A stretch of 64,000 nucleotides of DNA from Sphaerolaimus hirsutus. Lineage: Eukaryota; Nematoda; Chromadorea; Monhysterida; Sphaerolaimidae. Below the pieces are notes generated by a model that worked only from the letters and a program-made list of their open reading frames with translations, was not told the DNA's origin and made no database searches. The DNA is taken from positions 25,096,315 to 25,160,314 of the forward strand of contig OZ038454.1 of the NCBI GenBank assembly GCA_964036195.1, written 5' to 3'. Made by a program: the position numbers and the translations under genes. Numbering within the stretch: the stretch's first letter is position 1; each line of letters begins with the position of its first letter. Below are positions 1,648 to 63,866 of this stretch, piece after piece.

Positions 1648-4600
1648 ATGGCAGTGAAACGAAATTGCCAGCGGCCTATATCGATGGATATTCCGGTGCA
1701 GCCAAAGTGGATTTGCCTGACGGGCAAAAGGGCACATACAAAATACTGGTAGGATATTTGGGAACGGGTGATATGATAACTATAGGACACATTATAACAT
1801 CTTAAAATTGTAAGCGGCCAGTAAAATGAGAAAGTTTTACATTTTACCTGACTTTTTTACAGGATGCATGTAATTTAACCTTTTACATGTCATTTTACAA
1901 GGCGCCGTATTAGCATTTCATTGGGACTGGCATTTTGATTCGTTGGCATCTCGAACGGTGCTCGAAAATCTCTACCTTTTACCAGAATTAACAATATTCA
2001 GGTTCTCGTTTCAACCTATCGATATATTAATGCAGTACTTTTTCTCCCTGTGGAATTGCTAAATTTTGAAAAGTCTGCATTTGGAAACTATTCTGTATTT
2101 CTCAAAATTGAAAATATTTTTTTTCAAACCATTCACTCACAGGTGCCGCTGGCCGAGCTCGGCAAGGAGCACGCGATCGTGATGGAATATTACAATGACG
2201 CACCCGACAGCGATTCCACTGCGACCATTGTGGCTACCGTCGACGAGCAACTTGACAAGCCCGGAAGGGTCACTATCAGACATTGTCCATACAGGTGACA
2301 ATTTTCATGTTTTCTCACGGGCGAAGCATTTTGTCAAAAAAAAATTGAAAATGTTTGATGCCACCCCCAGACCTGTAAAGTTCGCTGTCAAATGCCAATG
2401 TTATGCAAAGTATCAAAAGTCATGTGAAATGCCCCGGAAAATGTCAAAATTTATTTTATTCATAAACGGTCATTTGTCATTTTACAGTTATTTTTACATG
2501 ACTTTCGACACTTTTCATGACATTTTACATGACTTTTGACCTTTTGAATGACATTTTACAATTTACAGTTTCTGCAAGTTGCACCAGTACTCGCAATTGA
2601 TTCCACCTAACCCAATCTGAACACTTTTTCAGCACGCTGTGCCGCGAGGCGTTCATCTCTGCCAGCGGCGAGCCCCAGTTCTACTCACCCGCCAGCGCCG
2701 ACCAGACCGAGTACACGGTGCGGTTGAAGGTGCCCGGCCCCACCGCCGACTTTGCTATCGGCAAATTGGTCGCCGTGCCCAGAAGTACCATGGAAATGGG
2801 CGGGGCCGATTTGATGCGGCCCGCGCCCGCCTGTGTGAGCAGCGCTGATGGGTTAGTGAAGTGGTTGTGTTTATTGTTTTAAATTGGTTGTTATTAGGGT
2901 TCAAACGGGACCGCGGTCCCGGTACATGGTTCGGCAAAATGTCGGGACTGGGGCGGTCCCGGTCCCGGTCCCAACAATTGGAAAAAGCCAGTCCCGGTCC
3001 CGACACCCCAGTCCCGGTCCCGGTCCCAACAATTGGAAAAAGCCAGTCCCGGTCCCGACACCCCAGTCCCGGTCCTGGTCCGGCCAGTTGAAAAAAGCCA
3101 GTCCCGGTCCCCACACCCCAGTCCCGGTCCCGCCAGTTGAAAAAAGTCAGTCCCGGTCCCGACATTAGAAAATTTCTGGTCCCGGTCCCGGTCCGAGAAA
3201 CTGGTCCCGTTTGAACCATTTTTGTACTTCGCCGCGATATCGCGCATCACTGGTCGGACTGCGGAATTTGCCGCGAAAGTTGACAGATTTTGGTGCTTCA
3301 AGTCACTTATAAAGTACGCATCAAGTGAAAGTAAAATTAATGTGTGGCGATGAAAAAAACGCTTGTAAACTTTGTGTGCTTGTTTTTCAGACGTTTTATC
3401 ATAGATTTCACCTTGTTTTTCAGACGTTTTATCATAGATTTCACCGAAAAGTGCGATGTGAGGACACTCTAGTACCGTATTTGCTCGAATAATTTCCATG
3501 GGGAATGACTTTTCGACGGGGAATTATTCAAGGGGAGGGATTATTATTTCGTCAAAATTTTCCAGCATGTCTATCAACTCAAAAAAATGTCTCGCAAAAA
3601 ATCCAAAAAAAAATCCGATTTCGAACACACCTCACCCAGTTGCGCCCCGCTGAGCTACATGGTGCCGCCGAACGCGATCGTGGTGTCCGCGGCGGATCAC
3701 GCCAACCAGACGGTGCCCTATGAGGAATTGCCCTACGGGGAGGCTGCTGGCATCTGGCCAACAGATAGGGTCAAACCCTCTCATCTCGTCGTGCAGCTGC
3801 ACTCTGAGAGTGGCGAGACGGAAAAGGTTCGTTTTTTGGACTTGTAGCTAGTACCGGTGACCCGCCGCCGAAACTGGTATTTTAATAAAACATTCACATC
3901 AACTTTAATCAAAAATCAAAATCAAAACATTCACAGCAAAACGCGATAAATAGAGCCGCGCGGTAAAAAAAGCCGTTTTTAATAGAAAACCGGAGATCGT
4001 TAAAAACTTTTTTTTGCCCCTAGAAGTGACACATTGAGCTTTGCATTGACTGGAGTGTTTTTGGCACAATTTCATGCTCACGTCAAATGACGAACCCTCT
4101 GTAAACTCTCATAAAAAGTTTCGACTTTTCTAGTCCGCTTGTCATGTAAACATTCATTTCAGCTATTTTTTGAAACTCCGCGTTGAATCGACACGGAGCA
4201 TAACATGATCGGACATTTTTGTAAATATATGCGATTTAAGTCCAAAAAATGATAAAGTTTTTTTTTGTGTGTAAAATGTCTGGAATTCAATGTAATCAAT
4301 TTTCCGATAACTCTTATTCACGAAACTGTCTCCTGAAAAATACACAACCCCCGCTCCAATAGTCAAGCGACAAAAGGAAATTAATCACAATATAAACTAT
4401 ATAACTCCCATTTCGCAGTATTTCAATTTCACGGCCGACCTTACCGGCTCCGGCGGCTACTACATTCTCCTTCCACACTACCATAACCCATCGAATGGTA
4501 TCGGTGCCACGCTGCCAGTTACCATAACCAGCGAAGATGGTAGAATTACCATGGCGCATGGTAAAATGACCCACTGCGCAAGTGCGAGTGGTTGCAGGAT

Positions 4601-11200: not shown

Positions 11201-14200
11201 ATATTGCAACTTAATCGACTACAGATGCGACTTGGGCTATTGGGGCAGTCCGTACGTGGCCGGAAGCGAGTGCATCCCTTGCAACTGCAGCGGCAACAAC
11301 GACTTGACCATGAGGGAAGCGTGCGACATCAACACCGGCTATTTTCATTTTCACAATTTTCATTTTTTTCACCATGTGCTCAATTTCACAATTTTTTTTG
11401 TCGCAGGCCTTTGCAACAAGTGCCAAGATCACACGTCGGGCGACAGTTGTCAACAGTGCGAACCCTGGTTTTACGGGGATGCTGTTGATGTGAAAAATTG
11501 CACAGGTTTGTCGAAATGTTTCTTTTGGTGCGTAGAATTTCAAGTGACAAATTTTATAATGCTGATAGTGCAATTCGCAATGTGAAAAACTCAGAAGTGA
11601 ACAATGTTCGCAAATTCACCAAAGAAACAGCGTTTTTGCGTACGAAGTGCGCAAATGCCCCAGATAAAAACCGCCCTGCATGAATTCGTCCAACCACCGC
11701 AACCCCCACCACCCAACCCCCGTCAACCCCCCCCCCCCCCCTCCCCCAGAATGCACGTGCTCCCAATGCGGCTCGTCCCAGTGCGACCACATCAGCGGCG
11801 TGTGCCAGTGCAAGCCCCTCGTGGAGGGCGCCAACTGCGACCGGTGCGCCGCCGACGCGTGGGGTCTCGACTTTTGCACCGGCTGCAAAGAGTGCGCCTG
11901 CGGCCTGGCTGCCTTAGATACCCAGGTGCCAGTCCCAGACCCTGTAAAATGCATTGTAGAATGTCAAATGTCATGCAAAGTGACAAAAGTCATGGAAAAT
12001 GCCCTGCAAAATGGCAACTCGGTTGCCATTTTGCAGGGCATTTAGCATGACTTTTGACACTTTGCATGACAATTGACATTTTACAGGGCGTTTTACAGGG
12101 TCTGGGACTGCCCCCAGTGCAACGTGACCAGCGGGCAGTGCGCGTGCCAGCCCGGCGCTGGAGGCACACAGTGCGAGAAGTGCGAGAGTGGGTATTGGAA
12201 TTATACTGAGAATGGGTGCACGAGTGGGTTTCTTGGAAAACTTTTTTTTTGTTTTTAAATTTTCGATGATGGTTTTTGGTGTGAGAAATGTTGTTTTATA
12301 AACCTACGGACATTTGAAAAAGATCTCGAAAGAGTCAAGGAGTAATTTTTAATTTTTCAACCGATAATTTTCCTCAAAACACGGACTGGAGTCTAATTTT
12401 CAAATGTACACCGACTTTGCGACTCGTTTACCATGTTGCAAAACATTGATAAAAGTTTTCACGAACCAAAAGAGAATATTCGCATTGTCTGCTCACGAAA
12501 ACATCCACAATTTTCAAATCCAAAAAATCCAACAAACCCCCCCCCCCCCCCAGAGTGCGACTGCGAGGCGGACCTGTCGCTGGGCACCGTGTGCGACGTG
12601 CTGACGGGCGAGTGCGTGTGCGCGCCCGGCGCCACCGGCGCCCGCTGCGACCAGTGCCTGCCCTACCACATCCGCATACCCACGCTCGGCTGCAGATGTG
12701 TGTTTGGGGTGGATGGGGTTGTAGTGGGCGTGGGTCGGTGCACAAGTAGCAAAAGTAGTATAAGGGCGCCATGGTGTGGCGTACTTTGGCGCCCTCAAAT
12801 GGCGCCATTCCATCACCAATCATGTGTATAGTTGTTGTTTTTGGAGGTGGGGGTGGAATGGGTTCAAAATTATGGGGTTTTTCAAGCTTTAGAAGGGAAA
12901 AAAGGGAGAAAAATCGCTAGATACATATGTAGATAGCTGGAGCATTTGGGGGGTAACCCAACCCCCTCCAACCCCCCATACTGAACACTTGCAATGCCCA
13001 TGAAGACCCAGTGCCCAAGTGTGGCGGCCGTACCCAAGCACCGGGTCTACATTGGTACCGGACATTGTTACTTGTGCACCGGGTTTACTTGTGCACCGGG
13101 TTTACTTGTGCACCGGTCCTGCGCCGGTTGTAGTGTTGTGATGTGTGGTTGTGTTGTGATGGTTGGGTGTGGATTGAGTGGGTTTTGTGACCTCTAGGGT
13201 ACTGCTGACACCAAGGCCACATTTATAAGCGGTCACATTTATTACCGGTTTTGGGTACGCAATTGCGTATACATTACTATGAATTTCTCGAAAATTTCTG
13301 ACGAAATAGAACCCCCCTCCCTCGAAATAACCCCCTCAAAATGTCCGCTCTGAAAAAATACCCCCCCTGGGGGTATTTCGAGGAACAGACGACGATTTTT
13401 GACGAGGGTATTTTTGACGACAGACTGCGACGCGTGCGTGCACGTGCTCGCCGACGAGATGACCGGATTATTGGACTCTGTCGACGCGGCTGACGCGCAT
13501 GTACGCAATACTTCGCGCGCGACGCTCACTGCTGTGAGGCTGCGCAAACTCAATGATACTGTTTATGAGTATAAGGTGGGTTTTGTTTTTGTTCGAATTG
13601 TTGTATGTTAAATTCATTGTCAGTCTACTCGAATTTGTGTGTTTTCTAATTGGTAGCTGCCAATCAAACTTGTTTTCTTCATTTTTCTTCATTTTATTTT
13701 TTTACATTCGTTTCTTTACATGTGTCAGGATTCGGCGCGGGAAATTGAAGAAACCGGTTCGGATGATATCCCCAAGCTGCTCGAGGAGGCGCTGGCGACC
13801 AGCGATCAACTACAACAGACTGAGTTTAATGTCTGTTCACCTCAAAATTTTCCATTGTTACCATATTTATTCTAATACAAGGGCGCTTTGTTATTTTTTA
13901 TTTTATTTTATGCATTTGGTACAAATGAAGGGTGTGCTTCTAAAAGTACCGATCTACAAATTTTTCTAATTTGAGTTAGGACCATTTTTGGGGTCCCCAT
14001 AAAAATTCGCTTCAAAAATATCTATAATATGTGGGGGTGCAAAATTCAATTTTGGGATATGGGGGGTCAAAAAAAGCAAAAAAATCGCAAAATACAGTTT
14101 TTGAAATTTTAAAAGTACCGAACTACAAGCTTTTTCAGCTTTTGTGTCTTTAAAAGTACCGATCTACACACTTTTTTCCAAATTGTTCTTTTAAATGTAC

Positions 14201-17200: not shown

Positions 17201-20200
17201 GTGAGTTTTGTGAACTTGTGAAAGTTAAGAGTGTAAATTTTTTTTCAAGATTATATGTGTAATTTTATTGTAAATAAAAATGCAGCTTCAAAATTGTATG
17301 TGTAATTTTATAGTAAAGAAAAAAAGTCATCTTCAAAAATATATTTTTGCAAACATTTTCATGGAAAACATAAAATTAAAGAAATTAAATATATTTGTAT
17401 ATTTATCAGTAAACTTATCAGTGTCTATAGGACTATTGGTATGTATGATTAATGTGGTGGCTGCTAGGGTTCAAACGGGATCCCGATCCCGAATCCCGAG
17501 AAATTTTGGGATTTTGTGGTCCCGATCCCGATCCCGATCCCGACATCTCAAAAAACCAATCCCGATCCCGAAAAGTCAATCCCATTTGAACCCTAGTGGC
17601 CGCCGCCAGCCCCTTTGCGCATCTAAACACCCAGTGCCCCTTTGCGCATCTAAACACCCAGTGCCCCTTTGCGCATCTAAACATTCAGTGCCCCTTTGCG
17701 CATCTAAACACCCAGTGCCCCTTTGCGCATCTAAACACCCAGTGCCCCTTTGCGCATCTAAACACCCAGTGCCCCTTTGCGCATCTAAACACCCAGTGCC
17801 CCTTTGCGCATCTAAACACCCAGTGCCCCTTTGTGCATCTAAACATTCAGTGCCCCTTTGCGCATCTAAACACCCAGTGCCCCTTTGCGCATCTAAACAC
17901 CCAGTGCCCCTTTGCGCATCTAAACATTCAGTGCCCCTTTGCGCATCTAAACACCCAGTGCCCCTTTGCGCATCTAAACACCCAGTGCCCCTTTGCGCAT
18001 CTAAACACCCAGTGCCCCTTTGCGCATCTAAACACCCAGTGCCCCTTTGCGCATCTAAACACCCAGTGCCCCTTTGCGCATCTAAACACCCAGTGCCCCT
18101 TTGCGCATCTAAACACCCAGTGCCCATTTGCGCATCAAAACACCCAGTGCCCCTTTGCGCATCAAAACACCCAGTGCCCCTTTGCGCATCTAAACATTCA
18201 GTGCCCCTTTCCGCATCTAAACACTTAGTAGCCCTGCCCGCACAGCCTCTCCGCAACGGCGTCGCACATGTCGGCCCAATTCACCACGGCCAAGGCGAGC
18301 GCCACGGACGCGCTGCGGGCGGCCGACGTGTTCACGAACATGGGCGACGAGATCGACAGGGCTGAGAAGGCCGCCAGTGAAGCCGTGCTCGCCGCCGATG
18401 GGGCTAAGCAGAGCTCGGAGGGGTTGGCTGTGCAGGCGCAGGTTGGATTTGAGGGTGGGGGGGGGTGGGGGTATTTTGAAGTGTAGAGGGGACATTGAGT
18501 TTTGGAGGAAACCTGTGTGCTAATATTATGTCGAAAAATGTCGAAAGTCGTGTCAAAAAATTATATCACTTGTTTGACCCTAGTTTGAATTACAGGAAAA
18601 GTGCTAATTCACAACATTAGCAATAGTGCGCCCAGACTCTATAAAACACCATGTAAAATGTCCTGTCTCATGTAAAAGACTCTGTAAATGTATTCAATGT
18701 ATACTGTGTATGCATATTTTATTCTATTTTATCCTAATTTAATCCAAATCTATTTTTTGTGTCCAAAATTTATGTCAAAACGTGAGATTTGGATACTATA
18801 GAAGAATAGTTGGACACGTGACAATTATATGGTCCTTTACATGACACATTACATGTCCGGGACTGGCACCAGCACTATTTAATCACCAAAATCATAAATA
18901 CAAACAATCATTCCAGGATGCCCGCGAAGCGTCGATGGACATGATGCGCACGACCACCGAGCACATGCAGGCGCTGAAAAACAATCTCACCACCAGTCTG
19001 CAGAATGCTGAAGATCAATCGAACCAGGTTAAAAACACCACGAAAATGGCTGAGAAGAAGCTTGATGCCGAGCACAAAGTGCTCACGCAAATGGTCACTG
19101 GTACGTTGTTTTTCTGATGTTCTTAATTGATTAATGAGTAAAGTGATTAAACTGCGGCGCGTTTTTACACTTTTAAAAACTAATTTCGTGAATATTGATA
19201 TTTAGACTCAAAAAATATTTTCATCAACTTTCTATCCATTTCTCCGGCTAAGCGAACTGCTTTCCGTACGCGCCGGCACAGTTCAGTTTTTTAAAGAACC
19301 GGTTTTTAAAGAGTTGTTTTTTAAAAAGATTCGCTAAAAAGCGCATCACCCAAAATAGTGATTTTGAAAATCAAATGGGCAAAAACAATAAAAAATTAAA
19401 AAAATCAATAATTTTAATAATAAACAATAAACGTTTACCAGGCTGCACTGCTGTTAACTGCAGTGTGTTTTTTTGTGAAATGGACAAGTTCGGAAATGTG
19501 TGTACCTTTCTCTTTTCCGATTTTTGTTAAAAAGCTAAAAGTCCTTTTTGTAAAAGCATTGAACCATTTTGCAAGAGGGTCGGGTCACGGGAGGAACCTT
19601 TTGAAATAAACATTCACTTAAACACACAACCCCCACATTTTTCCTAGCCAATCACGAGTCTGCCCTATCGCTGCTAACCCAGCGCGCCAATGAGCTCAAA
19701 GAATCCGCCACGGACACTGGCGCCAATGCACAGAAAATTGCGGATGAAGTTCAAGCTGTACAAACGAGGGGTTCTCAGGTTGTCGGCAGCAGTGAGAGGA
19801 CTGAGAGTGACCTGAAAAGTGCCAGGTCCAGTTTGGAGCTGGTTGGTTTTTGGGTGAAGGTTTTTAATGCCAACAAAAATGTCAGAATTTCAGAAAATCT
19901 GTTAAAATAAAATATAAAAGACCTTTTTCGGCCTCTATATATAAAATATTTAACAAATTATCGGCCTTTTCAGACTATTATATTTTATTTCTAAATATGA
20001 ATGAGAGATTTTCTTATCATAAAATAAATATACCAGCGATTTATGCGACTGAGAAAAACCGGAGAAAGTATCATTAAATTTAAAAAATTACAAATATATT
20101 TTTTCGAAAGTATAAATCACCCAAGATTTTTGGAACACTAGTCATATTTTATCATGTCTTATCATGTACATACATGCAGCATTTTCAAAATGTTTATTAA

Positions 20201-26200: not shown

Positions 26201-29200
26201 TGTGTCATTAAACATGCCTGCAATTGGAAAGCAGAATGCATGAATTCATATATTCAATAGATTTCCCTCATGGTAATAGCCCCTTGGCAACAAACATCCC
26301 TGGACAACTGTGCTCAGTGATGACTGGAGCCATGGGATTACATATAAAAGTTGTGATTTGTGCTAAAAATATAATTTTTACCTTGGACATGGGACAAAGA
26401 GAAGGTGAATACATTGAAAGTGATACTGATTCTTCATACAACAGAGTAATGTACATACAGAAATTAAAACTTTGACATCAAAAATTTCCCACAACCAATT
26501 AAATGGATTCCACCATTTTGTGAAAATGTGAAATTGCATGCTGTTTTCTGTTATTTCTGCAATGGTAAGTACTTGATGTACACAGTGGAGATAGCCAGAA
26601 TTTTTCAATCCATCTTTGATGTCTACATCCAATCCATTTAACAATCTCCAATGTGTACATCAAGTACTTACCATTGCAGAAATAACAAAAAAACTGCTGC
26701 ATAAATATACTTACTGTTGGCAATAGCCCCACATGGAAGTATCACTGTTCCATCTTCAGTAGCCTGGAAAGGTTTACAACCCTGAACATTGCTGAGATCT
26801 CCCAGCAGTTGGTCATCATTCCGTGAGCTATGGTATCTTCTGTGGTTCTGGTAGAAGTTGTCTAATCCATAATAGAAAATTACATCATTTTTCAAAGATT
26901 CATTGATCGTGACCTGTGAACATAGTAAAATTTGGTTGTTATTGATTTTTTTGGAGCTATTTTAAACAGATGAAAACTTACTGGGATGACACATTTACAT
27001 TCTGCATTTGTGGTGGGACTTTGAGCAACTGGTGTTGCAATCAACCATTCAGCACATTCCATTGTCATTGGGCTTCCATCATCTTTCAATCCCATGGTAG
27101 TGTCACTCAAACAATGAGTATATGGTATTGTTATTTCAACTATAGAATTTGCTTCAATTATGAATATGATTCCAATTGGTATTGTAATGACAGCTACTAA
27201 TACAAAGCAAATTATGGCATTTGCTGCATTGTATATTGGTCTAAGTGTTGTCAACTTTTGCTGATAGAATTTATGTCCTGAGTTTAAGTGGTAATATGAT
27301 TATTGTACCTGATAGGCTAAAATAGGCTTTTATACCCATCTAGCAAAATGCAAATCTGCAAGCATGCGCTGGCACTAGTGATGGAATGATGCCATTTTAG
27401 TGTGCCAAAGATGCCAGTTTAGTGCACCATGTTGCTGCTGGCACTGGCATACATACCTATTTTTGACCAAAACCATACTTAAATATTTCTGGCCAAACCT
27501 GAATTTGACTGAAAATTACTGAAGAACAATTCATCTGGCAGCAGTCGCAACACCCTGTACAATGCCACGTCAATTGTCAAATCCCATGCAGCGTCAATCA
27601 AAATAAAAAAGAAGAGATTTGATTACTGAACTTTTGACATTTTGCATGACATTTGACACATGACTTTACACTAGGGTGTGACAGTGTGTGGGACCCACCT
27701 GGGGCCAGAGCTGCCAACAGTGGACAAGTACTTTACTCTTCACTCTTGACTTTACTTTTGACTTTCTTCTTGACTTTTCATTCTCTTAACTTCGCTCATT
27801 GACTTTCAATTTATATTTTACATTTGACTTTGTTGAGTCAGTCTTAATATAAATTTGTCATTTTACTTTACCCTTGACATTTCACTCTGCACTTGTCTAC
27901 TTGCGGCACTGGCACCTGGTATCTAATGGATAGATTTAATGTATGGATGTATGAATTGAATTGGCACGCTGAACACCATGCTAAGTATTTGAAATTATGG
28001 ACCACAATTATGTGCATCCGGCCTACTTGTACTTCCCTTATGCTCTATTCGGCTGCGAGGCTTTTGAAAATGAATACAAATATGTATCTACCTTTAGGTC
28101 TGTTTTTCTTTGTAGGTGTTCCAGGCCTTACAGTATCTGCATTAAACCTTCTCCTCAGTACATCATCAGAGATATCCAAAGAATGCTCATTGAGTTGAAC
28201 TGCAGGTGCCACTCTTTTGACATTAGAATTGATCATTTTTGGCCACTATCCAAGTGCACGAGGAAAAAAACTTTTTCATAATTTCACCTGTCTAGGTTTA
28301 CTTTGGGCAGCAGATACACTCATCGCAGCTAAATACATGTATTAACAATACAACAGGTGCCTTTGTGCTTGTGTGCATTCTGTGTGTATCACACTTACTG
28401 ACTGTTTCCAATGGCAACACGGCTCATGTGTTTAAATACAAATGTGTTTACTTTCTGTAGGCTGTGCTGATATCACTGTATTTATTTATGTACATAGGGA
28501 TACATTATGAAAAGAGCAAGAATGGTTGCATTCAAAAAACATGGATTGGGAAATTTACATAAAAATATGGTATAAGCTATTGGGATATAAGCTTTAAAAT
28601 GTAGTTCTTTCTAGAAGATTATTGTTTTTAACTCAGGGTGACATTCCATCCTAGAAATGTCAAATTACCTGGAGAAGTTGCATAACTTACACTGATTGAA
28701 CTCACTAAACAATGTTAGGCACGTGTGGGGGGGGCACGCATTTAATATTTACATGTTCCTTTCACTTCTAGCCACTTTGAATCACTTCGCAGGCGTGTCA
28801 CTGAACGGGAATGGCTACGTGGCGCTGCAGCGAACCGCATGGAATCCCCGCAAAGACATGCAACTCACGTTCACTTTCCGGACGCACTCGCCCCATGCCA
28901 TGTTGTTCTATATTGGCAAACAGGTATTTATGACCAATATCAATACAGTAATTCTTCTGATAGAACGGCGCCGTTCTATTTTTTTCGTCAACTGTTTTAC
29001 CTGACGTTCTATTGGAGGTGCCGTTCTATTGGAGACTGCCGTTCTATATTTTCACACGATTTTCATCTGAGCATGGTATTTTAGTGAAATAAGAGCAACG
29101 TTTTAATATTAGAGCATCAAGCCAAATGTGACAACAACCCCTGAATCATATTTACTTTGGAACACCCTGGATGTTCTCGCCACCAATTTTTCAAACACTT

Positions 29201-38200: not shown

Positions 38201-41200
38201 TCGGAGATGCTTAAAATTTTTTTTTAAATAGAATCGATTGAAAATGTGTTATATATTCGGAGCCGTAAATCGTCCCAACCTATCCCAATCAACGCATGAT
38301 CCCTGGGAACCTAAACACCTCCGGACATCTGCGTCCGTTCGATACCCCCCCCCACTGCGTGTGCAAATGTCCAGCGGTGTTTGATGCCCACAGCTTCTGC
38401 GTCTCGCAACCACCCCGTATCCACAAACAACCCCCACAAAACCCCACCCCCTTCCCCAGCGTGGCGCTGCACGTGGACGACAGCACGCACATGAGCGCCT
38501 TGATCGACCCGCCGCCCGGCTGGGCCGCCCTGCCGCGCACCTGGGACGTCCTGTCGCTGCTGAGCGGCGACGACGCCGACTCGTCCTGGTGCCAGTCCCA
38601 GACCCTGTAAAGTGCCCTGTAGAATGGAAAATGTCACGCAAAGTGTCAAAAGTCATGTAAAATGCGCTGCAAAATGGCAACCGAGTTGCCATTTTGCAGC
38701 GTATTTTACATGACTTTTGACACTTTGCGTGGCATTTTACATTTTACAGGGCACTTTACAGGGTCTGGGACTGCCCCCTGGTCGGGCTGCGTGGCCGACA
38801 TGATTTTCGCCGGCGCCCTGATGGACTTTGCCCAGGCAGATGTGAAAAATCAAGTTTCGGTGAATGGATGTCCACTGGCCACTATGGATGCCGAGCCGGC
38901 GCGGGCAACTGGTGTTGTTGGAGAGGAGAAACATCGCACGCCCAAGTTTACGCAGCCGCCGCTAGCGCCGCCCTGTGAGTGTGCATTGGTGTTTACTGGC
39001 CCATCCTAGGCCGCCTTTTCAAATGACTATATTTGTCAATAATCTAGGAAAGTTTCAAATGGCTTGGATTCACCATAAATCGTGAATGTGAAACTTTAAT
39101 CGTCACTAAGCGTAAATAAAGTGTCCGATGCACTGTAAGCATTTTCTTGGGACTTACAAATATTATGTTACTTAACAGGACTTTGTTCCCACAAACACTA
39201 GTTGACACCGGAAATAAATGTCAACTGAATGTCAACTAAATAACACAAAAACAATTTTTTTTAAGCATCACACTTGACAGAAAACATGAAAATAAACAAC
39301 AAAAATTATACTAGGTATGCTCTATCATCACAGGAAAGTTGAAATCACATCCCCAGATAATCAACCAAAATCCAGTTGACACTCATTTCCATGTCAACTA
39401 CTGTTCACTACCCTTTGTCACATTCCCCATCACATCTTGTCACCCCCCCCCCCCTTAGCGGTGTCTAGCGTGTCGTCGCTGGAGGCGAGCCAGTGCGCGC
39501 TGCCCTTGACGCCGCTGGGCGTGCGCGAGGACTCTGCCGGCATGCGCTTCGGCCGCTCCCCAGACAGCCGCATCGAGTTCGGCCAGCTGCCGCAGCAGTT
39601 GGATACTAGGTTTGTACACACTAGGCGTGTGTGTGATGGAGTGGATGTGTTGTTGGGATTTTGCTTTGCGACAGCGCGTGAGGTTGCCGTATTTTTGGTC
39701 TTTGTTAGTGATGGAATGAAGCCCTATATTAATGACGCCAAATGGCGCCAGCGCTGGGCCTGTGCCTCTATGGCGCCATTGGCGCTTGGCGACTTTTTCT
39801 CTGGCGCCTGGCGTCATTTGTTGAATGGAGCCTGGCGCTACTTATCCTAGCGCTTTTCCATCACTAGTCCATGTATTTATACATTTATGTAACTTATTGG
39901 CGCTGCGCACACCAGCGTATTACCGTGAGTAAATTGGGACTTTGGTAAACTCATTAATCGGCTTCGAACATTTGATGTGCGGCAACATCCAGGACAATGA
40001 GTTTTCAGCTCAGACCTATAAAGTAATTTTTCATCTACTTCTACGATTTTTAAACTTTTTTCTACATCTTGAACCTTTAACCCCCGCGAACCCCCAAACT
40101 CCACAAAACTTTTTTCTAGCTATCTCTGGAGTTTTTCCAGCCTACTCTGGAGCGATAAGCTATCTATCCAACCCCCTGGAGGGTCAACATCTAGAATACC
40201 CCCGACATGCACAGCGAGCAACATGCTAAGAGGCACAAGCTCGTCAACAACGATTCATCATAACGTTATCGTTCCACCCTCGCAGGGGCACGATCAGCCT
40301 ATCGTTCCGCGCGGTGGCCTCGTCGGGGCTGTTGGCGTTCACGAGCAACGCGGAGAAGACGGACTACGCGGCGCTGTACTTGCACCGGGGCAACGTGGTC
40401 TTCAAGTACGACAGCGGCAGCGGGCCGGCCATGCTGCGCAGCCCCCACGCGTATATGGATGGGGAGTGGCACATGGTGCGTTATGGGTTGCGGGGTTGTG
40501 GGTGGTAACAGTGACGGTGACGGTGGTGGATTCTGTGGGAAGAAGTGTAAATTTTTTTAATTTTTTTTTCTAAAATGACTTCGAATTACAATTTTTCCTG
40601 ACATAACTTTAAGATTTTGCGAATGTTTTTAGAAAAAATAGTTGAATATAAGTTTTAGAATTTTTGATTTTCTTGGTGAGAAATGAAAATTCGAAAATGT
40701 TTTGAAATTATCAAATTTCGTTTGCCATCGCTAAGCACCAATTCACAATCTAAACCACCAAACTCCCGGGTCCCTCCACCAACCCGCCTCTTCACCCTTC
40801 CAGCTATCAGCGGAGCGTGACGGCCGTCGCGGCTGGCTGATCGTGGACGGGCGCGAAGTGGCCCGCGGCGAGTCGCCCGGCCGGACGCACAGCGTCGAGT
40901 CGCAGCCGCCGCTCTACGTGGGCGGGGTGCCGCCGCACATGACACACGTGCTGCTGAGATTGGTGCAGGTGCGCGGGGGTTTCCTGAGGGGTTTTAACTG
41001 GGGTGGTGGTGATGCACTGGGATGCCAGTTAATGGTGCCAAATTTCCAAAATGTTTAAATGGTGCCAATGTAGGAAATAGCGAGAAGCGGATTGGGACCA
41101 CGACGTTACTACTGTAAACACTTTTATAGATCAGTACGTGTCCGGAGCTAGTTGCGCAATTAGTCAGATATTAGACAGTTACACGGCAAAAAGTTATGAT

Positions 41201-43999: not shown

Positions 44000-44767
44000 C
44001 ATTCCCGGTCATGTCCGGCACCCTATTTTTGATCGTGTGACACCCTATCTCCAGTTCTAGGACGCGCCAGAAGCTGAAACTTGGGGGAAGTATTGGTTCA
44101 ACCCCCCTCTACTTCTCATGAATTTGGAGGGTCGCGGCTACCCCTCTCAGGGTGGGTCGCCCTAAGTGCGAATTTTTTTTTGGCTTTTTTGGTGTCCCAC
44201 CGCAGGTCCGGCACCCGCTCATTTCTGAGCTGTGGGAGCAGTATAAATCTTAAATTTTGGGGATGTGTTACCAACACCACTCCCCTACTATACACTATTC
44301 AATCATGTGAGATTGACGTGAAAAATTTCTAAAAAATGTGCTTATTCCCCAAAAAAGCATGACTCCCCAAAAAGTGAATTTTGTCATCCATCTATTGGGG
44401 AGTGGTGTTTTTTTGGAGAATAAGCGAATTTTTGAGAAATTTTTCACGTTAATCTCACATTTTTAAATAGTGTTTAGTAGGGGAGTGATGTTGGTAACAC
44501 ATCCCCAAAATTTTAGATTTATACCGCTCCCACAGCTCAGAAATCAGCGGGTGCCGGACCTGCTGTGGGACACCAAAAAGCCAAAAAAATATGCACTTAG
44601 GGCGACCCAACCTGAGAGGGGTCGCCGCGACACCCCCAATTCATGCTAGGTAGAGGGGGGTTGCGCCCATATCTCCCCCAAGTTTCAGCCTGTGGGGCAC
44701 CCCAGAACTGGGGATAGGATGTAAGAAGTAAAATCAAAAAATGGGTGCCGGACGTGACCGGGAAGGT
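44000..44767. mobile_element. Foldback element with about 340-bp arms
   Basis: CATTCCCGGTCATGTCCGGC (44000) is matched inverted by GCCGGACGTGACCGGGAAGG (44747). Arm similarity continues through CAGCTCAGAAAT and GGGGATGTGTTACCAACA to the centre near 44370. Termini resemble those of 58917-61235. Confidence 0.9.
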
Positions 44768-45143: not shown

Positions 45144-45471
45144 GATCGTGGCGCAGCGCCGCGAGGCCGAGCGACCATATCGACCCTTCCCGGTTTGTTT
45201 TGGGGCTGCGGGTTGCCATTTCGTGCTGGTGGCACTCCCGGACCCTGTGAAGTGTAAAAGACTAATTTGTCAACTAACTCTACAGGGCTTTTTACATGAC
45301 ATTTTAAAGGGTGATGTGTATCCAAATCTTACTTTTGATATAATATTCTGATACAGAAACATAAGATTTGGATACGATAATGTAATATATGGATACACAT
45401 GACACTTTACGGGGTCTGTGAGTGCCCCCTGGATTGGTGCCGGCTGCGTGATGGTGCTGGTGTCTGCTGTC
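45144..45471 (+). CDS. Possible orphan exon with a membrane segment, split by an introner-like element
   Basis: An acceptor (TTTTTTTACAG) and a donor (GTCG|GTGCGT) bracket GC-rich sequence interrupted by a 203-bp introner-like insertion at 45229-45431. With the insert removed, one frame reads SDHIDPSRFVLGLRVA then ISCWIGAGCVMVLVSAV, a plausible transmembrane helix. A second frame is also open. No partner exon fits in phase: a candidate upstream exon at 43850-43941 ends in the wrong phase. It may be a fragment of a dead gene. Confidence 0.35.
45229..45431 (+). mobile_element. Introner-like element in the orphan exon
   Basis: 203 bp, starting GTGGCACTCCCGGACCCTGT and ending GGGGTCTGTGAGTGCCCC plus CTG, with CTG also just before it. 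The interior differs from the laminin copies and carries an inverted ATCCAAATCTTA/TAAGATTTGGAT pair, defining a second subfamily. Confidence 0.7.
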
Positions 45472-53580: not shown

Positions 53581-56500
53581 GTGAGTGATGGTGGGATTTT
53601 GGGTGGATTAATGGGTTTTTGGGGGATTTTTGGGGGATTTTGAAGGATTTTGGATTTTTATTCGCTATTTTGGAGGTTTTTTCGACTAATTTTGCTTGGA
53701 TTCTGAATTTCGACGTTCAATCGGTTCTAATATGATTGCCAAAAAGGGATCTACATAGCAAATTTAGTGTGATTATTGCTGAAAATGGCTGAAGTAAAAA
53801 CCGAAATCTACTACATGTTAGTGCCATTATGATTAGATCGACATCCTTTTACGTTCATGTGATGCATTGTAAATATTTAAAATGGCACAGTGCGAAATTA
53901 AATAGTAGCTGGGCACCGAGAAAGATGATAAAATTCATCTTTCAAGGGTTTCTCCTTGCAGCCAGTTGCTAATCATATCAGAACTGAATGACAACATGAT
54001 AATTTTGAAACATAAATAATCGGCATGCCCACGAAAAACGTGTCGGCTTTACTAGAAGTGCCTGCGCAGCACTTTTCAGTCCGGAAATTCTGATTTTTTC
54101 TGGAAACTGAAATTTTGGGGGCGTCGGTCTGAAAAAAACCCATGCCTAGTTCAAAACATTTTCATTCAAAAATACACTTTTTCAGAAATTAGTGTAAATA
54201 CACAAAGAAACCATTCAGAAAGTGTCGCTAAAGCAGGAAAATGTACAGTGCAAGTGAACACAGCGAAAAGTAGGCTCGTGTAACGTGTGGAAGCGAGCTA
54301 AGATGCACTTGAAGCGGCTTTTGTGAAGGCATTCATTCCTACTCGCTTCCACCCGCTTCACGCGGTTTTCGGTGAAGTGTCTTCCGCACACTTCACTTAT
54401 CATCACGACGGACAAAATTCGTGAAGGCCACTTCACGAACCACCTCAGCATACTTTGCATGGTTCGTTAAACGTCGTAAAGTGTCTATAGGAGCAGTGAA
54501 GTGTCTTCATGCTGACTCTGACCTTATCTGCATGAAGCCACTTCACGACACCTCACAACTCATCACACAAAAAACACCCTTGATTGCCCCCCCCCCCCTC
54601 CTTCAGGGCGACGGCCAGTTCGACCAGAAGACGGTGATGGAGTTCAAGGAGGCGTTCGGCATCATGGACGGCAACAAGGACGGCATCATCGACAAGAACG
54701 ACCTGAAGGACTTGTACGCGTCCATGGGACAGCTCATGGACGACAAGGTGCTCGAGGCCATGGTCAAGGAGGCGGGCGAGAAGATCAACTTCACCGTTTT
54801 CTTGTCACTTTTCGGCAACAAGCTCACTGGTGAGTGAGGGGGGGCTGTGGGGGTTTTGAGGGGGTTTCTGTGGGGGGTGGCGGTAGTTGACAGATTTGGC
54901 TTTGATGGATTGTTGAGTAACCTTTGGTAATGAGATTTCTTAGCACTTGTCACTGAAATGACACACTTAAATCACACTGGCGCTAAAGTTTTAGGAGCTT
55001 AAATTTTAGGTTATGTTTTTTATTTTGGATACGTACCGATGTTTATTCATACTGTCTCGTTGTTGACAATATATTTTTCATTGACAAAAGCGCAGAGAAG
55101 ATCTCAAATATGCATGCGCATCATCTGATAAAAATTCTTTCCCAAACACATCATATCAGTTACATATTTTTCACACTATTGTCATTTTATTGAATCCCAA
55201 TGAAAAATGAGCATTACTTAGGAAATGTTTACAACTTCAAATGCAACCCCCCATCGCAGGTACCGACTCATTTGACATGATCCTGGAGGCATTCAAAAAA
55301 TTCGACCCCCAAGAAACTGGCAAATTGAACGAGAACGAGCTGATCAGAATTCTCAAGTTCAAGAAGGGCAACCCCTTGACAGACGCGGAGGTAAATTTTC
55401 GCAGTTTTATTTTTGTAAATTTGAAAGTTTGGGTGCGAAAATGTATGTTTGGGTGGAATACTTTCTGTTAAATTTAAGGTTTCTGGGAAGTTTAGATTTT
55501 TATGGGTTTTTTAAGTGGACCTCGGAACGGTGAACGTAGATAGGTAAATAGGTAAACAGATTTTTGCTTTGGTGAAGTGGCCTCTTGCTACGATTACAGC
55601 TCGGGCGTAAAGTTCCAGCGTAAAATTCCATCGCAAAATTGATTACATAAAAGTGGATGATGATACAGGTCTGCAATTTTTCATGGAGAATATGTTTATC
55701 AATACCTTCATTGTGTCCGAGAGTCATCATCCACAGTCACTGCCATTTGATTGTGGAAATTCAAAAATTTCTATTTTACGTTGGAATTTTACGCCAGCTG
55801 AAGAAAAATCAATTCTACACTATGTCATTGCATGCAATCACCTGGCGTAGAATTGCCTTTTCTTCAGCTGGCGTAAAATTTCAACGTCAAATCGAAATTT
55901 TTGAATTTTCACAATCAAATAGAAGTGACCGTGGACGATGACCCTTGGTCACAATGAAGGTATTGATAAACACATTCTCCATGAAAAATTGCAGACCTGT
56001 ATCATCATCCACTTTCATGTAATCAATTTTACGATGGAATTTTACGCTGGAATTTTATGCCCGAGCTGTAATCGCTCCATAATGATAAATACATCGATTA
56101 ATTATGCTGTGTAACATAAGGATAGACCTGTAAAAAATGTTTGCATTTATGGAGTGCTCGATTCAAATAACAATGTTAAAATGATTTTTAATAACGTTTA
56201 GAGTTGGCTTCATCGGCAGATCAATTATATAGATATATTGCGAATAATTATTAAAAATGCTTCAAATTGATTTCAAATTCATGTTTTTCAAATTGATTTC
56301 AAATTCATTTTTTTCAATGTCGAAAAACGACACAAAGTAAAAAAATTCTGCATTTACATTTTAGTGGAAATATTGTCAATAGACCCGTGATGGTGGTGTC
56401 ATTCAAAAACGAACCAAATATGTACCGTAATTTTATGAATAATGATTTTGGTACTTCTTTCTCATAAGTTACTCATTTCTCTGAAGTGTTAACTGTGGTT

Positions 56501-61373: not shown

Positions 61374-62098
61374 TCAGTATTCAAGAATACGCCACTCATA
61401 ATTCTGCGCCGTCTCGATGTGGTTGTTGTGTCCCTTGGGCATGGGCTTGTGCAGCTGGCAGTGGGCGGAGTCGAGGCCGTAGCTGAACGAGAAGCAGAAG
61501 CGGTTGGCGGCGCACTTGTGCTGGCAGCGCACCACCGACGCCACGCCCATCTCCTCCGACAGCACCAGCACGCTACCTGTGGGGCAGTCCCAGACCCTGT
61601 AAAGTGTCAAATGTCATGCAAAGTGTCAAAAGTCATGGAAAATGTCCTGCGAAATGGCAACCGAGTTGCCATTTTGCAGGGCATTTTCCATGACTTTTGA
61701 CACTTTGCATGACATTTCACATTTTACATGGTCTGGGACTGGCACCTGACACCAGACGACGGTTGCGCAATGTTGTTACCGCCTGCAACAAGGGATCAAA
61801 CAATTTTAGGGTGCAGTTTGCAAAAGTCAAAAATTGCCCTCAGTCAGCTAACAAGCAGGAGTTATACAAGGGGGGGGGGGTGTTTCGATGGATTCGGTCG
61901 AGGATGTACGGTAAATAAAAAACCCAAAATAAATTCCAAACCGAAGGAACGGACAACAAATTTTTTTATAAAAGCCTGATCCTCCAGCTGGCACATGACC
62001 CATCGCGCAGTAGTACCGTCCACTACAATACCATCCTCAATTTCTAAGGTTGTGGACAGTCGGCTGTTTGGCCCGCCAGTTGGTTTAGCCCAAAGTGT
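61374..62098 (-). CDS. 3' exons of a cysteine-rich secreted protein with a PAN/apple-like C-terminus
   Basis: Exons in transcript order: 62098-61976 (TLWAKPTGGPNSRLSTTLE... to ...WVMCQLEDQ), 61782-61746 (AVTTLRNRRLVS) and 61576-61374, ending RILEY and TAA. All three join in phase. The last exon reads CQHKCAANRFCFSFSY and CQLHKPMPK, the cysteine and aromatic pattern of PAN/apple domains, which suggests an extracellular binding protein; the exact family is unknown to me. The joint after 61976 seems to use a GC donor (CAG|GCTTTT), although a GT 18 bp further on is also in frame. The last intron is an introner-like element. Exons upstream (62.1-63.8 kb) could not be resolved. AATAAA at 61236-61231 lies inside the terminal repeat of the neighbouring element. 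Confidence 0.6.
61577..61745 (-). mobile_element. Introner-like element forming the last intron of the PAN-like gene
   Basis: 169 bp on the - strand, starting GTGCCAGTCCCAGACC and ending GGTCTGGGACTGCCCCA plus CAG. CAG precedes it as well. The hairpin tip GGCAACTCGGTTGCC is identical to that in 11926-12117. The flanking exons join in phase. Confidence 0.85.
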
Positions 62099-62590: not shown

Positions 62591-62772
62591 GTCGGAACAT
62601 GTTCCAATGCACAAGAAACTTGTTGCACAGTTTTTGCGTGACACAAGTTTGTAGTGCAGGTAGTGATGGAATGGTGCCATAGTGCTGGCACCATTCCGTC
62701 ACTACCTGCACTACAAACTTGTGTCACGCAAAAACTGTGCAACAAGTTTCTTGTGCATTGGAAGTTCCGACC
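62591..62772. mobile_element. Near-perfect palindrome with TAGTGATGGAATGGTGCCA core
   Basis: GGTCGGAACATGTTCCAATG at the left and CATTGGAAGTTCCGACC at the right bound arms of about 85 bp; the centre is TGGTGCCATAGTGCTGGCACCA. The core is a GGTGCC-type element. A separate small inverted pair, GTGGCGGTGA/TCACCGCCAC, follows at 62787-62877. Confidence 0.9.
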
Positions 62773-62892: not shown

Positions 62893-63108
62893 CTGGGGGC
62901 AGTCCCAAGCCCTGTAAAGTGTAAAGTAAAGTGTCAAATGTAAAGTAAAGTGTCAAGTCAAATGTCAAATGTAAAGTAAAGTGTCAAGTCAAATGTCAAA
63001 TGTAAACTAAAGTGTCAAATGTAAAGTAAAGTGTCAAATGTAAAGTCAAATGTAAAGTAGTGTCAAATGTAAAGTAAAGTGTCAAGTAAAGTGTCAAATG
63101 TCATCAAA
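62893..63108 (-). mobile_element. Introner-like 3' terminus with expanded interior words
   Basis: On the - strand the sequence ends ACAGGGCTTGGGACTGCCCC plus CAG at 62893, the introner 3' terminus. Behind it lies an expanded array of TTTACATTTGACACTT words instead of the usual palindrome. No matching GTGCCAGTCCC end was found, so its status as an intron is uncertain. 63109-63866 has nothing recognised. Confidence 0.55.
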
Positions 63109-63866
63109 AACGTAAAATATTCACGAAAAAAATAAAAATATCAAATGGAAAGTTATGAAATCCAACTGAAGTGAACACCGACATGTATTGAATCATGTCG
63201 GATGTATCGTGAATCCGCACTATTGATTATTGACAGATTGACAGATCTTAAGTATGACATGGATTGAGTATCCAAATCGACTGCTTGAATTTAACAAAAT
63301 AAGATTGGCTCATGTATGTTAAGTTGGCCCATGTCCAAGTTACTGGTTATGTGTTGTTCAAACGAGAGTGAAAGCTATTGAAATGGGAGTTTTTGCTCAA
63401 AATTGCTAAAACTAGCTCAATTTTGACATTCATTATTTTGGCCTTTATAATTGTCTATGTTCATAGTTGAATACCTATTTTTATAGCGATTTCTGAACTT
63501 TTGGCCATCTGCCAACTTCACATAAGGCGTATCTCCGAAAGAAATCATCGTATTTATTTTGAAACGTTGATTCGTTACCAAACAAGGGAGGATCAACGCG
63601 TCGCGCTGTTACAAAAAGATATAAAAAGGGAGAGGAAATAATTGTAAATATGTACATACAAAATTATCAACTGTCAGAAACAATAACTAAAGTGAAACTG
63701 AATGGGAAGCGAAAGATTTTTGTGTGAAAATGACTATTTTTTATACGTACAGGGGATCGCCGACATTATGTGAACTTGGCGTCTTTCCAATAAAGTCTAA
63801 TTTTGTATATGGACATTGTACGAACGACACAGTAGAGTACATGTAGAGTACAAGACACAAGATTAC

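Follow-up and report, generated by a model that had tools for sequence, protein, structure and literature searches.

RESULTS

A predicted laminin intron consisting of a palindrome and a duplicated codon

How does a coding exon come to be split by an intron that is almost entirely an inverted repeat? The question is raised by positions 11926 to 12117 of the window, the whole 64,000-nt stretch of Sphaerolaimus hirsutus DNA analyzed here. The original prediction held that a 192-bp GT-AG intron splits one laminin EGF-like (LE) repeat at this place, that it folds on itself to a defined tip with inverted termini exactly at both splice sites, and that it is an introner, an intron gained by insertion of a mobile element. 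At the level of sequence, the intron was borne out. When the exon at 11750 to 11925 was joined to the sequence from 12118 onwards, Pfam EGF_laminin matched in three stretches, the best of which covers all 49 profile positions and spans the seam, where CAG meets TGC and a complete laminin EGF repeat is restored. Laminin beta-1 (PDB 4aqs) also aligns across this seam; a gap of one residue falls five residues upstream of the seam. When the laminin region including the element was used as a protein query, no match was obtained.

The interval reads GTGCCAGTCCC...GGGACTGCCCCCAG (GTGCC...CCCAG) and is nearly perfectly self-complementary. As DNA it folds end to end at -93.1 kcal/mol (z = -23) and as RNA at -143.1 kcal/mol (z = -23), and in both cases 0 of 200 shuffled sequences folded as well; the tip of the fold, GGCAACTCGGTTGCC, is the one that had been described. 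In the predicted structure, the first 4 and last 7 bases are unpaired, and GTGC lies opposite GGGG. The claim that the inverted termini coincide with both splice sites held for the left terminus, which is the predicted 5′ splice site. However, the right terminus is at 12114, and the final CAG is a duplication of the codon preceding the element. Thus, the predicted intron contains the element plus one CAG duplication and nothing more, and as read from the sequence its GT is supplied by the element and its final CAG by the duplication. The features are as follows.

11750-11925, plus strand: upstream laminin EGF-repeat exon (5′ limit set by eye)
11923-11925, plus strand: left target-site duplication CAG, the last codon of the upstream exon; the same CAG is at 12115-12117
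11926-12114, plus strand: focal putative introner element, a 189-bp palindrome; the predicted 5′ splice site is at its GTGC end, and its CCCC end forms the C tract that precedes the 3′ splice site
12115-12117, plus strand: right target-site duplication CAG, the predicted 3′ splice site, repeating 11923-11925
12118-12223, plus strand: downstream laminin EGF-repeat exon (3′ limit approximate, set by eye)

Several other introns of this host, for example those at 11721 to 11749 and 12530 to 12553, have long runs of C before their AG. This means that a C tract may act as the polypyrimidine tract here, and the CCCC end of the element fits such a role.

Related copies and other repeats in the window

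A search with the 19 terminal bases of the element, allowing up to 3 mismatches, found nine matches in the window and none in 100 shuffled sequences. Beyond the laminin intron, the following copies and relatives were recognized.

38589-38777, plus strand: second copy, within an exon, close to where a laminin G domain ends, with CTG at 38586-38588 and at 38778-38780; it would be a GT...TG intron
61580-61745, minus strand: third copy, in a PAN-domain exon, with CAG at 61746-61748 and at 61577-61579 (minus-strand reading) and one extra base before the second; GT...AG
45229-45428, plus strand: fourth, divergent copy with CTG/CTG duplications, in no recognized coding context
27538-27698, strand unassigned: divergent relative with CTG/CTG flanks
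18622-18869, minus strand: divergent relative with CTG before its GT end
2356-2584, minus strand: degraded relative, left limit approximate
62896-63110, strand unassigned: GGGG-type end preceded by CTG, then tandemly amplified arm sequence

The CTG/CTG flanks of the second copy and the CAG/CAG flanks of the third define the element as running from GTGC to CCCC, with a duplicated CWG of three bases on each side. Pfam matches were obtained in both cases: at the second copy the match covers an earlier part of the laminin G domain and not the seam, and at the third the PAN_1 match starts a few residues before the seam. Compared with the first and second copies, the third is missing an identical 12-bp segment from each arm, so the arms seem to change together. 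Within a copy, the two arms share some changes, this indel among them, as if one arm served as a template for the other.

Other repeats also occur in the window. Long palindromes outside the introner matches lie at 55591 to 56074, 44176 to 44589, and 62602 to 62763, with arms of 242, 204, and 78 nt that are 91, 88, and 99% complementary, respectively. A 27-bp tandem repeat array at 17447 to 18367 has more than 20 units and is open in several frames, and two pairs of repeats about 48 kb apart (1-300/48632-48931 and 983-1282/49342-49641) are 98% and 94% identical. As to the source of the DNA, the best named matches of a myosin regulatory light chain exon (54601 to 54834) are nematode (Oesophagostomum, Parascaris, and Toxocara), with fish scoring lower; among unnamed proteins, the nearest by identity (83%) comes from metagenome sources.

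A high-copy family that duplicates CWG

The proposed genome-wide search was carried out on 348,482,957 bases in 762 contigs and placed the 192-bp sequence in a high-copy family of the host genome. The query itself gave 2377 first-look candidates, 40 of which were scored. Exact element ends (GTGCC...) occurred 1572 times, 850 as CAG|GTGCCAGTCCCAGACC and 722 as CTG|GTGCCAGTCCCAGACC, compared to 0 exact matches for the reversed control patterns; no exact end was found in the viral contigs searched. With random target choice and orientation, equal numbers of CAG and CTG would be expected, and the excess of CAG is significant but modest (P = 0.0014), with copies that carry GTGC at both termini entering the count twice.

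Copies were sampled in three sets: the best matches to the query (L001 to L030), and the first CAG-left (L031 to L060) and CTG-left (L061 to L110) places, which were taken in contig order and come exclusively from contig C1. The 30 best-match loci were reduced to 21 by excluding repeat hits on one element, loci whose flanks were duplicated, copies that had GT at either both ends or neither, and copies with unlocated ends. The right end was located in 26 of L031 to L060 and 47 of L061 to L110. With L056, L083, and L084 dropped as duplicates, and L043 and L072 later, 71 copies (21 + 24 + 26) remained for the exon-join analysis below, to which 18 of 20 further CTG-left copies were added.

The flanks show a consistent duplication. 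Among the 21 copies not chosen by their flank, the left CWG was present in all 21, an exact CWG stood on both sides in 19, and the same trinucleotide was repeated in 17. Overall, 75 of 91 copies have an exact CAG or CTG on both sides, although 70 of the 91 had been found with a pattern that included the left CWG, and in these the right side alone tests the duplication. In the contig-ordered sets, with shifts of one or two bases accepted, the right end of CAG-left copies was CAG in 22, CTG in 2, and other in 2 (n = 26), and that of CTG-left copies was CTG in 30, CAG in 11, and other in 6 (n = 47). A C precedes the duplication in 45 of the 75 exact copies, a G follows it in 52, and both are found in 31, which suggests an insertion target of about CCWGG with the central CWG duplicated. 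A similar target is reportedly used by a zebrafish Harbinger element. In most sampled copies the termini are GGGG at one end and GTGC at the other. Measured copies mostly diverge by 3 to 12% from the family majority sequence. The GC content of the flanks is 0.557, compared to 0.415 farther out. The family has the features of a miniature inverted-repeat transposable element (MITE): it is short, with inverted repeats, a fixed-length duplication, many copies, and no transposase inside.

Joined flanks read through in one orientation only

For the exon-join analysis, the flanks of each copy were joined minus the element and one duplication, one open reading was taken per direction by the same rule, and Pfam matches were accepted at an E value of ≤0.01. 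With the GT end first, 18 of 71 joined flanks matched Pfam at the seam, compared to 0 of 71 in reverse, and the further CTG-left copies gave 4 of 18 and 0 of 18, for totals of 22/89 and 0/89. The GT-first seams, together with sequence similarity extending to both predicted splice boundaries, are what a family of introners would show. In 19 of the 22, the match crosses the seam and extends 9 or more residues to either side (L100, L102, L103, and L106 counted by hand). The other three only touch it: the match starts at the seam in L003, ends there in L018, and has just 3 residues before it in L006. In the case of L018, the join was misplaced at the right side, so that the match covers the upstream exon only; read by eye, its right end is CCCAG and keeps the frame. 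A codon score computed for 73 copies favored the forward direction in 26 and the reverse in 6.

Seventeen of the 22 loci score above the Pfam curated cutoff. The five below it are L006, L059, L082, L086, and L103, and the families concerned are PDEase_I, Pkinase, Srx, E1_dh, and Calpain_III. Of these loci, L086 alone was compared with the PDB and matched, which confirmed E1_dh. The families read across or at seams are diverse and include EGF_laminin, CAP, SLC12, IRK, BTB_2, Glyco_transf_7C, p450, Oscp1, Xan_ur_permease, Cyclin_N, Rcd1, Sugar_tr, and AMP-binding. Five seams align without gaps to solved structures, namely CNOT9 (82 residues), Na,K-ATPase, branched-chain ketoacid dehydrogenase, cyclin Y, and Kir; these, with CWG at both borders, point to insertion into existing exons. 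Many sampled copies thus end where cutting restores a protein, the splice sites here being predicted rather than annotated ones.

By class, the 22 loci comprise 9 CAG-left copies, all ending in AG, and 13 CTG-left copies, ending in CTG (9), CAG (3), or CCCAG (1). In the contig-ordered samples, Pfam support was found for 2 of 24 CAG-left and 9 of 44 CTG-left copies. A rough extrapolation from these 11 of 68 seams, all on one contig, would put more than 200 introners among the 1572 exact ends, and because domains miss many exons the true number may be higher. Given 19 seam-crossing matches compared to none, reverse insertions, which lack the GT, would appear to have been lost from exons.

Some individual loci deserve mention. 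L040 (C1:3592982, CAG/CAG) and L067 (C1:3592147, CTG/CTG) both match Oscp1, lie 835 bp apart, and are probably in the same gene. L082, L083, and L084 represent a duplicated serpentine-receptor-like gene with a CTG/CTG copy in all three. The gene around one copy matches Srx, a serpentine family, with a score under the cutoff.

CTG copies and putative GT-TG introns

The nine Pfam-supported CTG/CTG copies are all GT first and none is reversed (two-sided P = 0.004). Eight cross the seam; four are below the Pfam cutoff, one of which is confirmed by the PDB, and for the six that pass the cutoff or match the PDB, P = 0.03. They lie in CNOT9, Kir, branched-chain ketoacid dehydrogenase, and other genes. 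No register of the exact join gives both a GT start and an AG end. In all nine, the last ACAG stands 19 nt short of the end, and its use would shift the frame, so that keeping the frame would require TG as the last dinucleotide. Six of the nine (L006, L019, L067, L082, L086, and L088) diverge by 4 to 7% from the family majority and are therefore not brand new. Taken together, these observations make GT-TG splicing of the CTG/CTG copies likely. GT-TG splice sites are described for the Micromonas introners IE-B and IE-D in the available part of PMC3879977, and our literature search found no report of GT-TG introners in animals. If CTG were spliced poorly, CTG copies should be depleted in exons; the 2/24 and 9/44 given above show no such depletion.

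Some CTG ends appear to have become CAG. In cyclin Y (L087) and Na,K-ATPase (L094), the left CTG encodes a leucine that the best solved homologue shares, and so the right copy, now CAG, is probably the one that changed. The proportion of CAG on the right of CTG-left copies (11:30) compared to CTG on the right of CAG-left copies (2:22) is not significant alone (Fisher P = 0.11). CAG accounts for 11 of the 17 changed CTG ends (two shifted by one base), compared to a one-in-nine chance per substitution (P = 2 × 10⁻⁷, under a null that ignores mutation bias).

Transposon affiliation

The CWG duplication, the CCWGG-like target, the GGGG end, and the animal host fit NuwaI of the PIF/Harbinger superfamily, for which the accessible sections of PMC4482050 describe CWG duplications, termini that are usually GGG, and a distribution in animal genomes. 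The genome contains at least 163 matches to DDE_Tnp_4 (150 of 306 candidates scored). A partner transposase was looked for and none could be tied to the element: at two Harbinger-type transposase loci (L111 and L112; stretches of 5.0 and 4.0 kb inspected), nothing resembling an element terminus was seen for about 2 kb around the match. Since autonomous NuwaI candidates average 4.46 kb (PMC4482050, in the part available), the ends may lie outside the inspected sequence.

Many DDE_Tnp_4 matches score almost alike and contain equal numbers of stop codons, which seem to come from introns; they perhaps represent a young Harbinger-like family. A related short element lies about 1.5 kb from the DDE_Tnp_4 match in L112. 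This diverged relative (L112:242-433) has a GTGGCAATCC... end and CTG/CTG flanks and perhaps belongs to a second subfamily.

Alternative explanations

As a 5′ splice site, CAG|GTGCCA is unlike the usual consensus, and a better-looking pair, GTAAAA...TTTTACAG, is present inside the element, which counts against the terminal sites. A donor GTAAAA located 18 nt into the element might be paired with the terminal acceptor, the protein gaining six codons. The left-arm sequence CTGTAAAA is more donor-like than GTGCCA, judged by that consensus, and 18 nt keeps the frame with no stop in any phase, as read by eye. We consider this improbable, however, because six extra residues are hard to accommodate in seams as tightly conserved as those of CNOT9, cyclin Y, Kir, and the BTB domain, and the CTG copies would still need a TG acceptor. 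Even less probable is excision of the hairpin by a route independent of splice sites, as suggested for Amoebophrya introns with inverted and direct repeats. The very stable hairpin, the direct repeats at both borders, and the TG ends would all suit such a route, and Amoebophrya introners have inverted repeats and direct repeats of 3 to 5 nt (PMC7789003, in the part available). But a symmetric hairpin should work both ways, and the Pfam-supported copies are 22 GT first and 0 reversed; hairpin excision was set aside because of this bias. That the copies are ordinary MITEs, present by chance in preexisting introns or broken genes, is scarcely credible as a general account. It draws on the 67 of 89 sampled copies without a Pfam match at the seam, so that much of the family may be noncoding, and on L003, where a receptor-domain match begins at the seam and the upstream flank is AT rich and not coding-like, maybe at an old intron-exon border. 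Against it, the laminin intron consists of the element and one duplication only, and 19 joined exons read across the seam.

The most serious alternative, although still an unlikely one, accepts the CAG insertions alone as true introns. The exonic CTG/CTG copies would then either go unspliced, as recent or polymorphic alleles that break the gene, or be removed in some way that does not use GT...TG. Human TG acceptors are rare and AG dependent, found only beside an AG in the available part of PMC2374985. In 4 of the 13 Pfam-supported CTG-left copies, the 3′ side does carry AG (CAG in L004, L087, and L106; CCCAG in L018), and the gain of AG is what would be seen if TG worked less well, its direction being supported only for L087 and for L094 (by the PDB, without a Pfam match). 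Restricting introns to CAG insertions leaves the nine CTG/CTG copies hard to explain, however: all are GT first, eight cross the seam, they lie in genes such as those for CNOT9 and branched-chain ketoacid dehydrogenase, and the six measured are not brand new. The AG-only splice pairs that were worked out inside the element do not rescue them: the added length would be 19, 31, 37, or 49 nt, and every one of these moves the frame by 1.

DISCUSSION

The high copy number, the CWG duplications, and the Pfam matches at GT-first seams all favor the introner interpretation of the laminin intron. We consider it highly probable that this intron is an introner derived from a nonautonomous nematode DNA transposon, a MITE that is close to a single hairpin, is most commonly 189 bp long, and duplicates CWG at about CCWGG. 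A transposase acting in trans, most likely PIF/Harbinger-like and of the NuwaI type, would insert the element and duplicate the CWG seen at its borders. The GTGC end, which looks like an ancestral GGG terminus in which a G became T, then follows the first duplication directly, and the resulting CWG|GTGCC would serve as a 5′ splice site. A short C tract comes from the other end, and the putative intron closes with the second duplication, CAG or CTG depending on the direction of the target. The spliceosome would remove GTGCC...CAG, or GTGCC...CTG by means of an unusual acceptor, leaving one duplication and an unchanged mRNA, and insertions in the other orientation, having no GT, would be lost from exons. 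In some CTG copies the second duplication may later have become CAG, a change polarized in two conserved proteins and presumed in the others.

On balance, we also lean toward a wider interpretation: that GT-first insertions of this NuwaI-like transposon, the CWG being symmetric, give rise to about half GT-AG and half GT-TG introns, that both are spliced constitutively, that some TG ends turn into AG by a T-to-A change, and that the target resembles a proto-splice site. If that holds, a single genome would let one watch new introns with weak splice signals become canonical, and a transposase target resembling the proto-splice site would explain why new introns begin there. An element landing in genes can seemingly be spliced out with the protein intact, one intron end being its own and the other coming from the duplicated target. 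The family is large, its measured copies mostly diverge by a few to about a dozen percent, and it has built-in controls in its orientation and in CAG versus CTG. It makes testable the route from transposon to intron and which end supplies which splice site, the constitutive removal of GT-TG introns on a large scale in an animal, and the idea that proto-splice sites reflect the target choice of a transposase.

How does the family compare with known systems? No nematode introner family was among the matches listed in our literature search, subscription papers being mostly outside its range. A large survey found introners in only two animal groups, and the word nematode is absent from its main text (PMC9860276, seen in part); a study of intron gain in 104 nematodes mentions introners, in the portion available, only as known from elsewhere (PMC9169325). 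The worm family resembles the introners of PMC9860276, as far as the available part describes them, in being repeated introns with similarity extending to near the splice sites, terminal inverted repeats, and short duplications. One class in Chrysochromulina, like the worm element, carries its 5′ splice site and co-opts the 3′ one, but it has 4-bp duplications and no inverted repeats. Unlike the introners of that survey, the worm element duplicates CWG, is one hairpin over its whole length, and leaves the choice between AG and TG to a target base.

NuwaI, assigned to the PHIS superfamily, shares the 5′-CWG-3′ duplications, has termini that usually begin with GGG, and is restricted to animals in the accessible sections of PMC4482050, with 12 bony fish, a beetle, a crustacean, a mollusc, and an anthozoan as hosts. 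Those sections mention neither a nematode among the hosts nor any part played in gaining introns. The worm element has GGGG at one end and differs in that the other starts with GTG. The Amoebophrya introner elements are similar in their inverted repeats, hairpins, and 3- to 5-nt direct repeats at the borders; however, their borders are highly variable and noncanonical (PMC7789003, in part), whereas the worm element has one fixed GT end and a strong orientation bias. Micromonas IE-B and IE-D share GT-TG sites with the worm element (PMC3879977, in the part available). These green algal elements have 25 and 6 members, respectively, and very variable lengths (100 to 6,494 nt, some IE-B), with long reading frames in eight of the IE-B members, whereas in the worm both GT-AG and GT-TG introns appear to arise from a single family of palindromic MITEs.
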